Below are positions 17,813 through 21,527 of a stretch of 64,000 nt of DNA, piece after piece; within the stretch, counting starts at the first letter, position 1, and each line of letters starts with the position of its first letter. This DNA is from Hanstruepera neustonica (GTDB lineage: Bacteria > Bacteroidota > Bacteroidia > Flavobacteriales > Flavobacteriaceae). The stretch spans positions 1 through 64,000 of the forward strand of contig NZ_POWF01000012.1 of assembly GCF_002895005.1 (NCBI RefSeq), written 5' to 3'. Below the pieces are notes generated by a model. It was not told the origin of the DNA, searched no databases, and was given only the letters and a program-made list of their open reading frames with translations. The translations under genes were made by a program, and so were the position numbers.

Positions 17813-18580
17813 TTATACTTTAAATATATCTTTAGAATTTTGTGTTGTAATGTCGGCAATCTTTTCTTCAGGAAGCCCATACAATTCAGATAGTTTTTCC
17901 AAAACTTTGACAATATAGGCACTTTCATTTCGCTTACCCCTATAAGGTTTTGGAGCTAAATACGGTGAATCTGTTTCTAGGACAATATGTTTCAAATCTA
18001 TTTGATTTAAAAACTGGTCAATCTTACCATTTTTAAACGTTACAACACCGCCTATACCTAGTTTCATATTGTAAGATATGGTTCTTTTGGCATCTTCAAT
18101 AGTTCCAGTAAAACAGTGAAATATACCAAATAGATCATCTGATTTTTCAGATTCCAAAACCTCAAAAATCTCCTCAAAAGCTTCCCTACAATGAATGACT
18201 ATTGGCAGTTTATATTTTTTTGCAAGTTGAATTTGATATCTAAAAGCCTTTTTTTGTATTTCCAAAGTTGATTTATCCCAATATAAATCGATACCTATTT
18301 CACCTATTGCATAAAATGATCTTTTGGCAAGCATATCTTCAACGTGAGCCAATTCACTTTTATAATTTTCTTTTACTGAAGTTGGGTGCAAACCGGTCAT
18401 CAAAAACATATGTTGAGGAAATTCCTGCTCTAATTGTAACATGGATTTCGTGTAAGTAGAATCAATAGCTGGAATAAAAAAACGGTTAACACCTTTGTCC
18501 ATGGCTCTCTGAATCACTTCATGTCTATCTTCTTCAAATGCTTCGCTATATAAATGGGTATGTGTGTCAGTTATTATCAT
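17813..18580 (-). CDS. TatD-family metal-dependent hydrolase/DNase
   Basis: A 255-residue TIM-barrel hydrolase. The metal ligands are visible: DTHTH (residues 5-9), the Glu in GEIGIDLYWD (about 94), His in IVIHCREAF (about 130), His in IFHCFTG (about 155) and Asp in LETDSPYLAP (about 204). TatD enzymes remove 3' nucleotides from DNA or RNA in repair and decay. It is the first gene of the operon with ansA and divergent from the aspartic protease gene. Confidence 0.92.
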   Translation of the reverse strand: MIITDTHTHLYSEAFEEDRHEVIQRAMDKGVNRFFIPAIDSTYTKSMLQLEQEFPQHMFLMTGLHPTSVKENYKSELAHVEDMLAKRSFYAIGEIGIDLYWDKSTLEIQKKAFRYQIQLAKKYKLPIVIHCREAFEEIFEVLESEKSDDLFGIFHCFTGTIEDAKRTISYNMKLGIGGVVTFKNGKIDQFLNQIDLKHIVLETDSPYLAPKPYRGKRNESAYIVKVLEKLSELYGLPEEKIADITTQNSKDIFKV

Positions 18581-18608
18581 TTAGCAAAAATATGTCTTTT
18601 TACATTAC

Positions 18609-18616
18609 TACCTTTG
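18609..18616 (+). promoter_or_regulatory. -7 element of the aspartic protease gene
   Basis: TACCTTTG fits TAnnTTTG and ends 14 nt before the ATG at 18631. It lies inside the longest possible ORF (from 18538), which argues for the short start. Confidence 0.55.
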
Positions 18617-18630
18617 TAATAAAATGGAAT

Positions 18631-19071
18631 ATGGAAAGCTTACAGGAATTTCTTTTAGATAAAGGCTACACAAAAATTAAATTAAAGCTTACAAAAACTA
18701 ATCATTTTGAAGTCCGAGCTACCATCAATGGTGTCAAAGGTCTATTCATATTGGATACTGGTGCATCCGGGTCGTGTGTTGGTTTTGAAGCTATTGAGAC
18801 CTTTAAACTAAAAGCAAAAGATTCTGAAGTTAAAGCTGCTGGAGCTGGTGCCACTGATATGGTAACTCAAATTTCAAAAAAGAATGATTTGAAAATTGGT
18901 AAATGGAAAAAGAATAAAGTTGCTTTAATCCTATTTAATATGGCACATGTCAATAGTGCTTTGATAGCCCATAACGCCAAACCTGTTGATGGCATCATTG
19001 GTGCCGATATCTTGAAAAAATCTAAAGCCATTATTGACTATGAAAAAAAATATTTATATTTAAAAATGTAG
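18631..19071 (+). CDS. Single-domain retropepsin-like (clan AA) aspartic protease
   Basis: A 146-residue protein with one aspartic-protease motif, LFILDTGASGSCVG (about residues 42-55), and a second conserved segment DGIIGADILKKSKAIIDYE near 120, which is the usual pattern of bacterial retropepsin-like proteins that act as dimers. There is no signal peptide, so it is probably cytoplasmic. I chose the ATG at 18631: the frame is open from 18538, but that would overlap the divergent TatD gene and the promoter. The response regulator gene follows 47 nt later without an obvious terminator. Confidence 0.75.
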   Translation: MESLQEFLLDKGYTKIKLKLTKTNHFEVRATINGVKGLFILDTGASGSCVGFEAIETFKLKAKDSEVKAAGAGATDMVTQISKKNDLKIGKWKKNKVALILFNMAHVNSALIAHNAKPVDGIIGADILKKSKAIIDYEKKYLYLKM

Positions 19072-19118: not shown

Positions 19119-19751
19119 ATGAATACCTCTATTGTAATTGCCGATGATCATCCTTTAATGTTAAGAGGCTTAAGCGATTTTTTAACTTCAAAAGGTTATA
19201 ATATCCTCGGTAGTGCAACAAATGGTAATGAAGCTTACAATCAAATTGTAAAACACAAACCTGATATCGCTATTTTAGATATTAGAATGCCTTTTAAAAC
19301 AGGTTTAGAAGTCGCGGAAACGTGTTTTAAAAACCATTTAAACACAAAAATTATTCTAATTACATTTGACAAAGGCGAAGAACTATACGATAAAGCAAAG
19401 GAATTGAATGTATTCGGATATATTCTTAAAGAATTTGCTATTGAAGAAATAGAAACATGTATCAGTCATGTAAATGAAGGGCAACCTTATTTTAGCGAAG
19501 AGATTGCATCCTATTTAAAATCTGCAATTCCTTCAGCCAAACCTGAAGAAATAGAAAGCCTTACTAAATCTGAATTGAAGATACTACGTTTTATTTCTGA
19601 AAATAAAACAAGTCAGGATATTGCTGAAATATTAGATATTTCATTTAGGACAGTCACAACCCATAGAAGTAATATTGTCAATAAACTCAAGCTCGAAAAC
19701 AGACCCTCGTCATTATTCCTTTGGGCAATTAAAAACAAAAATCTTTTGTAA
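19119..19751 (+). CDS. NarL/LuxR-type response regulator (orphan)
   Basis: A 210-residue response regulator. The receiver domain (1-120) has the acidic pair Asp9-Asp10, phosphoacceptor Asp54 (ILDIRMP), Thr82 and Lys104, all intact. The LuxR-type HTH is about residues 147-190 (LTKSELKILRFISENKTSQDIAEILDIS...). No histidine kinase gene adjoins it. Its stop codon lies within the first of three TACGTAC palindromes that head the promoters downstream, so it is the obvious candidate to bind them; that link is inferred from position. NarL-family HTHs normally bind such two-fold symmetric sites as dimers. Confidence 0.92.
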   Translation: MNTSIVIADDHPLMLRGLSDFLTSKGYNILGSATNGNEAYNQIVKHKPDIAILDIRMPFKTGLEVAETCFKNHLNTKIILITFDKGEELYDKAKELNVFGYILKEFAIEEIETCISHVNEGQPYFSEEIASYLKSAIPSAKPEEIESLTKSELKILRFISENKTSQDIAEILDISFRTVTTHRSNIVNKLKLENRPSSLFLWAIKNKNLL

Positions 19752-19800
19752 AATACGTACAAGTACGTATTTTTTTTAAGCAAATATCATTGTATATTTA
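19750..19800 (+). promoter_or_regulatory. Palindromic operator and promoter, unit 1
   Basis: Arms TACGTAC and GTACGTA flank a central AA; with the flanking A/T bases the arms extend to 11 bp (19750-19760 and 19763-19773). The -7 element TATATTTA (19793-19800) starts 31.5 nt from the centre. The -33 position is occupied by the outer palindrome arm and no TTTG is present, so an activator is probably required. The site overlaps the stop codon of the response regulator gene, and with its T-tail may also act as that gene's terminator. Confidence 0.75.
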
Positions 19801-19804
19801 CAAA

Positions 19805-19876
19805 GCTATTAATCGAAATTCTTGTAGGGAATTATAGAAGGCTTTTTTGTTTGAACAAAAAGGCCTTCTTTTTTTT
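19805..19876 (+). ncRNA. Candidate small RNA 1 (about 72 nt)
   Basis: It lies between a promoter and an intrinsic terminator: the -7 element ends at 19800, GCTATTAAT begins at 19805, and AGAAGGC (19836-19842) pairs with GCCTTCT (19863-19869), extended by TTTTTGTT/AACAAAAA, before eight T residues (19869-19876). There is no start codon in the span. The 5' half aligns with small RNA 2 (GCTATTAAT, TTCTT, AGGGA, ATTATA in the same order). The start is predicted, not mapped. Confidence 0.65.
19836..19876 (+). terminator. Terminator of small RNA 1
   Basis: A stem of about 15 bp with one G-T wobble and a T-tract of eight. It is the strongest intrinsic terminator in this region. Confidence 0.88.
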
Positions 19877-19896
19877 ACGGTGACTTTATATTCTGC

Positions 19897-19948
19897 AAAA
19901 ATACGTACAAGTACGTATTTTTTAAGTGAATAATCCACCATATCTTTA
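19897..19948 (+). promoter_or_regulatory. Palindromic operator and promoter, unit 2
   Basis: Arms of 12 bp (19897-19908 and 19911-19922) around a central AA have the same core TACGTAC/GTACGTA as unit 1. The -7 element TATCTTTA is at 19941-19948, again 31.5 nt from the palindrome centre. It has no coding gene immediately before it, which argues against these palindromes being mere gene terminators. Confidence 0.78.
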
Positions 19949-19952
19949 CACT

Positions 19953-20027
19953 GCTATTAATTAGTTCTTAGGGAGAATTATATTTTGGAACTCTGCATGC
20001 TTAAAGTATTGTGGGGTTTCTTTTTTT
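19953..20027 (+). ncRNA. Candidate small RNA 2 (about 75 nt)
   Basis: It starts with GCTATTAAT at 19953, at the same distance from its -7 element as small RNA 1, and ends at a terminator whose stem pairs GGAACTCTGCA (19987-19997) with TGTGGGGTTTC-type sequence (20010-20020, several G-T pairs) before seven T residues. There is no usable ORF. Order of shared blocks with small RNA 1 suggests duplication with a diverged terminator. Confidence 0.62.
19987..20027 (+). terminator. Terminator of small RNA 2
   Basis: An 11-bp stem with G-T wobbles on the RNA strand, a loop of about 12 nt, and TTTTTTT at 20021-20027. Confidence 0.7.
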
Positions 20028-20039
20028 AATCTAAATCAT

Positions 20040-20091
20040 AAAAATACGTATAAGTACGTATTTTTTTTGACAGACATACTTTCTAACTTTA
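20040..20091 (+). promoter_or_regulatory. Palindromic operator and promoter, unit 3
   Basis: Arms AAAAATACGTA (20040-20050) and TACGTATTTTT (20055-20065) share the same centre; one inner base pair is lost (T for C). The -7 element TAACTTTA (20084-20091) again begins 31.5 nt from the centre. It drives the 32-residue peptide gene, whose leader of about 38 nt also contains the octamer CTATTAAT (20117-20124). Confidence 0.75.
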
Positions 20092-20134
20092 CAAGTATGA
20101 ATGACTAATACCCAAACTATTAATTACTCAACCC

Positions 20135-20233
20135 ATGGACGACAATACTGGATTTAACAAATATTTTATTATAGGATTAATATTGCTCGCAGCAATAGTA
20201 GTGTCAATCAATATTCTTGTAGGTTTTTTTTAG
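20135..20233 (+). CDS. 32-residue single-TM peptide of the palindrome module
   Basis: An ATG at 20135 opens a 32-codon ORF: an acidic/polar N-terminus (MDDNTGFNKY), then one hydrophobic span of about 22 residues (FIIGLILLAAIVVSINILVG) ending in two Phe. It is the only ORF between promoter unit 3 and the bidirectional terminator at 20260-20286. It could be an inner-membrane regulatory or stress peptide. The stretch encoding INILVG shares ATTCTTGTAGG with small RNA 1, which may reflect common origin or chance. Confidence 0.6.
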   Translation: MDDNTGFNKYFIIGLILLAAIVVSINILVGFF

Positions 20234-20259: not shown

Positions 20260-20295
20260 AAAGCGCAACCAAAATGGTTGCGCTTTCCTTTTTTA
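20260..20295. terminator. Bidirectional terminator between the peptide gene and sucB
   Basis: AAAGCGCAACCA (20260-20271) pairs perfectly with TGGTTGCGCTTT (20275-20286) across AAA, with T-rich sequence after it on the plus strand and six T residues on the minus strand. It serves unit 3 and the sucAB operon. Confidence 0.88.
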
Positions 20296-20309: not shown

Positions 20310-21527
20310 TTAAAGCTCTAGAGCTTTTTTAACATCGTTGTTCATTAAAAGTTCAATTGGGTTTTCCAAGGCTTCTTTTACAGCTACCAGGAACCCAACA
20401 GATTCTTTTCCATCTATAATTCTGTGATCATAAGAAAGGGCTACATACATGATAGGACGAATTTCTACTTTTCCATCAACTGCAACTGGTCTTTCTACAA
20501 TATTGTGCATGCCCAAAATACCACTTTGAGGTGGATTGATAATTGGTGTAGACAACATACTGCCAAACACACCTCCATTAGATATGGTAAAGGTTCCTCC
20601 TGTCATTTCATCAACTGTAATTTGCCCATCGCGAGCTCGAATAGCTAATCGTTTTACTTCGGCTTCAACACCTCTAAACGATAAGTTTTCGGCATTTCTA
20701 ATAACAGGAACCATAAGTCCTTTTGGTCCAGAAACAGCAATGGAGATATCTACAAAATCATAGCTAATCATATCCTTGCCGTCTATCATAGAATTTACCG
20801 CTGGGTATTCTTTTAATGCTCTTACTACTGCCAATGTAAAGAAGCTCATAAAACCAAGGCTTACACCATGTTTAGATTTGAAGTCTTCTTTATATTGTTT
20901 ACGCAATTCAAAAATAGGTGACATATCTACTTCGTTAAAAGTAGTCAACATAGCTGTTGTATTCTTAGCTTCAACCAACCGCTCTGCAACTTTTCTACGC
21001 AGCATAGACATTTTGCTTCTTGAAGTTGATCTGTTACCTCCTGTTGGCGTTCCCATAGATGGAACAGCTTTTACAGCATCATCTTTAGTAACACGACCAT
21101 CTTTACCTGTACCTTCAACATCACTTGCTGACATATTTTTTTCAGCTAGGATTTTTTTTGCGGCTGGACTTGCAGATCCTGTGGCATAGGTTTTAGTTTC
21201 TTTTTTATCAGGTTTTGATTCAGAGGCCTCAACTTTAGGAGCCTCCTCTTTTTTAGTTTCTTTATCTTTAGACTCGCCTTCTGGCTTTTCAGCGCCTGTG
21301 TCAATTAAACAGACCACTTGCCCAACGGCAACAGCATCACCTTCTTCAGCCTTTAGTGTAATTGTACCACTAGCTTCTGCTGGAAGTTCAAGCGTAGCCT
21401 TGTCACTATCAACCTCTGCTATAGCTTGATCTTTCTCAACATAATCACCATCTTCTACCAACCATGTGGCTATTTCTACTTCTGTAATAGATTCTCCTGG
21501 TGACGGAACTTTCATTTCTAAAATCAT
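20310..21527 (-). CDS. sucB: Dihydrolipoyllysine succinyltransferase, E2 of 2-oxoglutarate dehydrogenase
   Basis: A 405-residue E2 core enzyme of the TCA-cycle complex. The lipoyl domain (1-75) carries the lipoylated Lys in [15 protein letters not shown] Lys/Glu/Pro-rich linker is followed by the E3-binding domain ([32 protein letters not shown], about 117-155), then the acyltransferase domain with SYDHRIIDG holding the catalytic His near residue 375. It lies 26 nt downstream of sucA, in one operon. E3 is encoded elsewhere. Confidence 0.96.

Follow-up and report, generated by a model that had tools for sequence, protein, structure and literature searches.

A response regulator gene of Hanstruepera neustonica is followed by three near-identical palindromes, each ahead of a promoter-like element, which raises the question of what is transcribed from this locus and whether the regulator controls it. 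The gene lies in the window, that is, the whole stretch of 64,000 nucleotides that was analysed, in a genome of 3.05 Mb. Its product (19119..19751, plus strand; 210 aa) consists of a receiver and a GerE helix-turn-helix domain and scored above the cut-off for both PF00072 (81.7 bits) and PF00196 (56.6 bits), which makes it a NarL/FixJ-type regulator. The receiver is complete, with the phosphorylation residues D9, D10, D54, T82 and K104 invariant in 101 of 101 aligned regulators, and the regulators of four genomes of the same genus are 92, 88, 77 and 76% identical to that of the window. Located 47 nt upstream is a gene for a retropepsin-like aspartyl protease (ASP; 18538..19071, plus strand; Pfam Asp_protease_2, E 8.5e-12), and the convergent neighbour on the other side (20310..21527, minus strand) is, judging by its sequence, presumably sucB/odhB (2-oxoglutarate dehydrogenase E2). 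Two sets of relatives were compared, the best 80 of 245 and 20 more distant loci hand-picked across a range of identity. An ASP homologue was present in 98 of 100 loci, within 150 nt of the regulator in 89, and it lay less than 150 nt upstream of the regulator in 79 of the 80 loci that are the best of 245. A sucB homologue was convergent in 75 of 100 loci; in the other 25 none was found within the stretch examined.

Three palindromes of the form TACGTA-N4-TACGTA (no strand assigned) were found where the original prediction had placed them, centred at 19761.5 (box 1; core 19754-19769, A/T-extended 19750-19773), 19909.5 (box 2; core 19902-19917) and 20052.5 (box 3; core 20045-20060). The cores of boxes 1 and 2 are identical (TACGTACAAGTACGTA) and that of box 3 (TACGTATAAGTACGTA) has one mismatch. 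Each box precedes a promoter -7 element on the plus strand, at 19793..19800 (TATATTTA), 19941..19948 (TATCTTTA) and 20084..20091 (TAACTTTA), all three read from the sequence. The Flavobacterium sigma-A box, TAnnTTTG, occupies -12 to -5 (PMC9723704). The first bases of the TAnnTTTA elements are 19793, 19941 and 20084, and the distance from palindrome centre to element is therefore 31.5 nt in all three copies, as had been claimed. The sigma-A box rule (PMC9723704) predicts +1 at 19805, 19953 and 20096, so that the transcription starts proposed earlier, at 19806, 19954 and 20097, hold apart from a shift of one base upstream, and box 1 is centred at -43.5. Reading the sequence likewise bore out that all three promoters lack a TTTG at -33. 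The regulator gene had been said to stop inside the first palindrome; its TAA (19749-19751) does overlap the A/T extension, but it ends 3 nt upstream of the core. Allowing up to three mismatches, the palindrome matched the window four times against 0.84 expected, and 2 of 100 shuffles also gave at least four, so that the number of matches as such is only moderately unusual. The feature that goes beyond chance is that three boxes with zero or one mismatch lie inside 310 bases at one common distance from their promoters.

This arrangement is conserved. Each of five genomes of the genus carries three to four boxes 3' of the regulator, and in every one of the 80 loci from the best-matching 80 of 245 relatives, modules follow the same NarL-type regulator, at least one of them with exactly 39 nt from the start of the box to the start of the promoter. 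Among the 196 modules with TTT[AG] promoters in these 80 best loci, a set that includes one false member from L066, this distance was 39 nt in 189 and 38 nt in 2, and 5 had no box by score; of these five, one is the false module of L066 and two, in L093 and L098, keep a weaker box at 38 nt. An ungapped stack of 185 modules, aligned by the promoter only, showed 89-98% conservation in 11 of the 12 half-site columns and either A or G in the twelfth, giving the extended consensus AAAATACGTAgaAgTgCGTATTTT. By comparison, a box was present at only 12 of the 1007 remaining promoter-like sites of these loci (again the best 80 of 245). Eight of the 12 had it at 39 nt, five of them resembling the small-protein promoter of the window and three having a diverged RNA start; L065 and L109 overlap true modules, and two look like chance. 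Comparison with relatives thus supports the proposal that these promoters are under regulation with the palindrome in fixed register, and also the activator-like placement of the palindrome, centred at -43.5 of promoters without a TTTG at -33.

The boxes could alternatively be RNA hairpins, that is, intrinsic terminators, with box 1 ending the regulator mRNA, and not protein sites at all. As RNA they do fold, to 10-11 bp and -7.7 to -8.2 kcal/mol, with U's following, and the columns 3' of the box are mostly T. We regard this as very unlikely, because the spacing between box and following promoter is constant to the nucleotide. In addition, the palindromes behind a different regulator described below occupy the same place without a T-run, and kinase-bearing relatives have ACGTGTT..ACACGT followed by ATTTC or similar, with no long T-run. 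It is possible that box 1 is in dual use, as a terminator and as a protein site.

Modules 1 and 2 are predicted to encode small structured RNAs of about 72-75 nt. Small RNA 1 (72 nt; 19805..19876, plus strand) begins with GCUAUUAAU and continues with hairpin I (19817-19833) and a terminator hairpin (19836-19869) with a U-run; small RNA 2 (75 nt; 19953..20027, plus strand) also has GCUAUUAAU, hairpin I (19962-19980) with AGGG at the loop, and a terminator hairpin (19987-20020) with a U-run. Their fold z-scores were -4.26 and -3.12, respectively. The predicted anatomy, a conserved 5' end GCUAUUAAU at +1, a small purine-loop hairpin and an intrinsic terminator, recurs in relatives. In a set of 187 modules with TTTA promoters, which holds a few false members (the second of L066, for instance, is the small-protein terminator), the G of GCUAUU lies exactly 12 nt behind the promoter start, at the predicted +1, in 170, and GCUAUUAAU is present in 169. 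Within the first 48 nt, 115 of these 187 RNAs carry AGGGA, 36 GAGAG, 19 other purine motifs and 17 none, and AGGGA is found at the loop in individually folded RNAs. Up to seven modules were counted per response-regulator locus (L098).

The helices are supported by covariation in alignment A1, which contains 76 of 91 selected RNAs. Two-sided changes were seen at 13 of 13 pairs of the terminator helix and at 4 of 6 pairs of hairpin I, and the covariation score of the alignment was attained by 0 of 500 shuffles. Overall, 91.9% of cells were paired (94.3% in the terminator and 86.7% in hairpin I, which was set by hand from single folds and is the weaker of the two), pairing dropped to 54-58% when the partner was slid by one column, and two-sided changes occurred in 236 cells versus 68 in shuffles. 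The figure of 17 pairs with two-sided changes was attained by 6 of 500 shuffles, which ignore relatedness. The 15 RNAs dropped from A1 by hand were in part false (the second entries of L066, L081 and L091) and in part strongly divergent or long, most of the latter kind coming from loci of the Bizionia type; for this reason, both A1 and R1, the covariance model of the small RNA family, lean to typical RNAs. A further 38 of 204 RNA candidates failed the automatic terminator finder and are absent from A1, many of them with a short T-run or a hairpin placed elsewhere.

R1 matched small RNA 1 (E 1.2e-5) and small RNA 2 (E 2.5e-7), both of which belong to its own building set, and these two copies were its only matches in the window genome. 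With a threshold of E<=0.01 it matched 138 of the 397 genomes sampled from the family, of which those with E>0.001 are doubtful, under the stricter filters of many-genome searches, which lose weak matches. Among 395 sampled genomes of the class, five matched at E<=0.001; three of them (the window genome, G129 and G158) belong to the same family, and the two matches outside it (G465 and G481) were rejected as chance, each being the 3' end of a gene with its terminator. In the window, Rfam 15 at its gathering cut-offs reported only a tRNA, and at E<=5 five loci gave 15 matches that all fell below the family cut-offs, so that the RNAs did not qualify as members of a known RNA family. An own promoter, a conserved structure and a Rho-independent terminator are features of a trans-acting small RNA, and to the extent that sequence and covariation can tell, these RNAs have all three. 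In the open-licence literature, as judged by titles and the beginnings of abstracts, we found neither such a small RNA nor such a layout described.

These data also bear on whether the modules could be a repeat, mobile or simple, whose position behind the regulator is accidental. The units are indeed tandem and alike and their copy number varies. This explanation is nevertheless hardly credible, given that they sit in the same place in all 80 of the best 80 of 245 loci, that their terminator stems diverge with compensatory changes and that R1 finds no copy in the window genome beyond the two in the window. In genome G349, nine R1 matches lie at C1:1238816-1239997, several of them equal in score; together with the seven modules of L098, this suggests a recent tandem expansion in these two cases. 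As separate observations, some seemingly ordinary mRNAs (L260, L262 and the second hit of L263) appear to start with GCTATTAATC behind a promoter-like element, so that the 5' motif may have a wider role, for example in stability or transcription start, and an RNA-like unit of L261 (around position 2995, reverse strand) has the hairpin GUUACG-UUAGGG-CGUAAC, with a similar loop on a wholly different stem.

Comparison supports the original prediction of small RNA promoters for modules 1 and 2; module 3 is predicted to drive the gene of a small membrane protein instead, so that RNA genes would account for two of the three modules. Its predicted leader (20096..20134, plus strand) keeps CTATTAATTA at 20118-20127, by direct reading, which is perhaps a trace of the 5' motif of the RNAs. 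The ORF that follows (20135..20233, plus strand) encodes 32 residues, MDDNTGFNKYFIIGLILLAAIVVSINILVGFF, with one hydrophobic span, and an intrinsic terminator, likewise read directly, lies at 20263..20295 on the same strand (GCGCAACC...GGTTGCGC and a T-rich run). A small hydrophobic ORF occupied the place of module 3 in 94 of 101 loci, at least three of which look like chance (L110, L118 and L121). Between the window and L043, its nonsynonymous and synonymous divergence were 0.12 and 1.44, and the nonsynonymous value was the lower one in 20 of the 20 pairs printed. In several Algibacter-type relatives the small ORF lies behind the second RNA without a box of its own. In 7 of 8 kinase-bearing relatives, a box is followed by the small ORF with no RNA start in between, which suggests, as an order inferred from sequence, that the protein is the older output.

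Who reads the box? In this genome, the proposed genome-wide search for box plus promoter at the exact distance gave, with up to three mismatches, 16 matches against 11 for a reversed-pattern control, and three of the four matches with zero mismatches were the window modules. When two mismatches were allowed and all five genomes of the genus were searched, there were 54 matches against 5 in the control, 16 of the 54 being modules of the regulator locus. Near-perfect palindromes (at most one mismatch on at least one strand) occur at nine places in the H. neustonica genome, and all nine were found again in the box-plus-promoter search at the module distance. At the six boxes outside the window, the promoter part had zero mismatches in two, one in three and two in one. 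Having a promoter within one mismatch at five of six is far above chance, as random places fit within one mismatch in 2.7% and within two in 12.8% of cases (measured on the best 80 of 245 loci). These six boxes (C1:740400, C14:47902, C14:138223, C14:157364, C16:1859 and C11:151416; L001-L006) have promoter-like elements of other genes downstream at the module distance. Their units fall into two sub-types, TATAGGG...TTAGATTTG and TATTGA...TAACTTCG; several have leaders that by eye resemble integron attC sites, with GACCTTAAGGA repeats upstream, and the genus has further units of this kind in its four other genomes. Because identical box sequence and spacing precede these other, cassette-like genes, the window regulator may not be the only one to read the box.

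The best evidence that the box is the site of the neighbouring regulator comes from cases in which regulator and palindrome change together behind the same RNA type. R1 matches outside the locus placed the RNA directly 3' of a 256-residue PAS-LuxR protein (PAS_3 and GerE), with the palindrome AATACTCAAATTGAGTATT. This protein was present in 40 of 199 genomes of the family at E<=1e-60, and we inspected the 30 best matches. In all 30, the gene is followed by TACT(C/T)AA..TGAGTATTG (one base changed in L227) and a GCTATT-like start, which is exactly GCTATTAAT in 26. The distance from palindrome centre to the G was 43 nt in 28 of these 30 best matches and 44 nt in one, and the remaining one has a variant start; 4 of the 30 RNAs lack any purine motif tried, and some are clearly diverged in body (e.g. 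L215, L223 and L226). The window genome has such a PAS-LuxR and palindrome pair as well (C13:85475-86233), whose RNA R1 missed. Of its seven GerE proteins, four have GCTATTA within 500 nt downstream, and two of those four, the window regulator and PAS-LuxR, have a palindrome at -43 to -43.5. A third regulator case is a kinase-regulator pair with TACGG-N4-CCGTA, found twice in one genome (L178 and L179), centred by eye at about -41.5; this palindrome was not listed by the automatic finder. Since the palindrome changes with the regulator while its position and the RNA stay, the neighbouring regulator is the likely reader, and the palindromes of the window are probably its sites.

Several related arrangements were noted on the way. 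The L178 and L179 units are similar, about 7 kb apart and followed by different genes. In L195, a response regulator gene and a PAS-LuxR gene are adjacent beside sucB, with GCTATTAA behind each. In the window genome (C9:229000-237500; L259), a kinase-response regulator pair has RNA-like units with GCUAUUAAU and terminators on both sides, and paired matches with similar promoters are present in each of the four remaining genomes of this genus; by reading, the palindrome nearest the rear unit of the C9 pair is centred at about -32 rather than -43, and it was therefore not counted as a module. A link between recognition helix and half-site was also considered. Among the regulators counted, all 7 that have a His after T[VI] in the helix show a C in the left half-site (TACGC), compared with 4 of the 81 others; for a C in both half-sites the figures are 6 of 7 and 0 of 81. 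These counts leave out 13 of 101 regulators with no box readable by the pattern used. We rejected the link as proof of binding, since it reflects about two independent changes, is not significant on the tree and has a contrary case among the regulators left out, L081, in which the His is present yet the left half-site is TACGTA.

The description of the regulator as an orphan is correct for the window but not for all relatives: in 8 of the 20 more distant loci it immediately follows a sensor kinase (about 670 residues), placed between ASP and the regulator. The kinase of L123 scored above the cut-off for HisKA_3 and HATPase_c and below it for TPR, and its identity to the remaining seven kinases is 54-60%; a related kinase was present at two further distant regulators, which lack ASP. 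No sensor kinase was found in that place beside the window regulator, and the proteins of the window genome most similar to the relatives' kinase are 27-34% identical and located elsewhere, so an adjacent kinase was rejected for this locus. The one closer match in the genus (44%; G003 C12) adjoins a paralogous regulator. In the same genome, a paralogous response regulator that is 41% identical lies beside a related kinase with the palindrome TACGTAGGCCTACGTA behind it (L014).

Taken together, we favour a regulator-activated trio of two small RNAs and a small membrane protein, to which we assign a probability of roughly 0.75. The regulator would be phosphorylated at D54 and bind as a dimer to TACGTA-N4-TACGTA centred at -43.5, from where it would recruit RNA polymerase to weak promoters without a -33 element, in a class-II-like activation. 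It would thereby fire three units behind its own gene, two RNAs of about 72-75 nt and the mRNA of the 32-residue protein. The anatomy, its conservation, the fixed register, the covarying RNA helices and the palindrome that changes with the regulator were directly observed; binding, activation, phosphorylation and the functions of RNA and protein are what we infer from them. The position of the box would by itself suit activation or repression, and the regulator might repress these promoters, or another regulator might read the boxes, as the box abuts the -33 region and the same sequence precedes other genes. We think this improbable, because at RNA genes of a single type the palindrome changes together with the regulator next to it, and because the promoters lack a TTTG at -33, as would be expected if they depend on an activator. 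Under the favoured activation, the membrane protein may feed back on the sensor or on an envelope process, and the RNAs would most likely act in trans, pairing via the exposed purine loop, the single-stranded 5' tail or both.

The RNAs might instead be sponges for an RNA-binding protein, in the manner of Rsm RNAs, and not pair with targets. Their multiplicity, with up to seven modules per response-regulator locus and up to nine R1 matches per genome, and the AGGGA in the first 48 nt of 115 of 187 RNAs, at the loop where folded, would suit such a role. It agrees less well with the single short loop per RNA, with our failure to find CsrA in the window genome and with the second motif, GAGAG (36 of 187), which suggests different partners as it occurs in RNAs of the same loci. 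We therefore hold the sponge to be a possible but doubtful alternative to base-pairing.

The palindrome modules themselves were confirmed, and their first interpretation, partly supported, was right in outline. The new point is that one RNA type is reused behind different LuxR-type regulators with other palindromes, as a shared output that several signals could raise. Tentatively, and with less conviction than for the trio itself, we consider a modular layout of the Flavobacteriaceae in which RNAs with the near-constant 5' end GCUAUUAAU and a purine loop are joined to different LuxR-type regulators as cassettes of regulator, palindrome and RNA (the cases being this response regulator, PAS-LuxR and the kinase-regulator pair with TACGG-N4-CCGTA); signals might then meet in a common RNA currency that acts through a novel RNA-binding partner in a genome in which no CsrA was found. 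To our knowledge, control by small RNAs has been little explored in Bacteroidota, with few cases of an RNA linked to a transcription factor. For the present locus, more than 100 genomes allow the regulator, its probable binding site, the promoter and the RNA to be read from the sequence, so that the whole chain is open to testing, and a conserved small membrane protein is added to the regulator locus.

Among known systems, the Vibrio regulator LuxO drives several sibling Qrr RNAs, one copy of which lies beside the regulator gene, although LuxO is a sigma-54 activator and the Qrr RNAs are Hfq-dependent and belong to Gammaproteobacteria; the likeness is a response regulator that drives sibling RNAs. 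GacA is a LuxR/NarL-type response regulator, and RsmX/Y/Z are several redundant RNAs with GGA loops, encoded by scattered genes, that titrate CsrA-type proteins. The Gac/Rsm pathway is defined by such a CsrA/RsmA-type target protein and by RNAs with several GGA hairpins. The parallel drawn in the original prediction holds for the layout and fails for the downstream half, which is missing here as no CsrA/Rsm protein gene was found: CsrA (PF02599) had 0 matches in the window genome, in a search that found matches in 3 of 14 control genomes. The RNAs have one purine-loop hairpin and a terminator instead of several GGA hairpins, and they adjoin the regulator gene. With CsrA not found and one short loop per RNA, we rejected membership in Gac-Rsm. 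A further likeness is the palindromic element upstream of each RNA gene, which the Pseudomonas Rsm genes also have (PMC2375449). From the same bacterial family, Rfp18 of Flavobacterium psychrophilum is a small RNA whose third stem-loop is predicted to pair with metalloprotease mRNAs, as described in PMC9723704, a paper whose main text mentions neither LuxR nor palindromes. By layout, with one response regulator and several sibling RNAs, the locus resembles LisRK-LhrC of Listeria monocytogenes. In the PMC4132741 passages, LhrC1-5 is a multicopy small RNA with five promoters, all dependent on the LisRK regulator and sharing a conserved upstream element, while no consensus LisR site was known. 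These passages also describe a short loop motif that contacts mRNA, UCCC in the LhrC loops versus AGGGA or GAGAG here (PMC4132741; compared by description), and they do not place the LhrC copies beside lisR, whereas here the RNAs adjoin their regulator. If our reading is true, pathways like Gac-Rsm or LisRK-LhrC, in which a response regulator acts through RNAs, also occur without CsrA and beyond the groups in which they were discovered.
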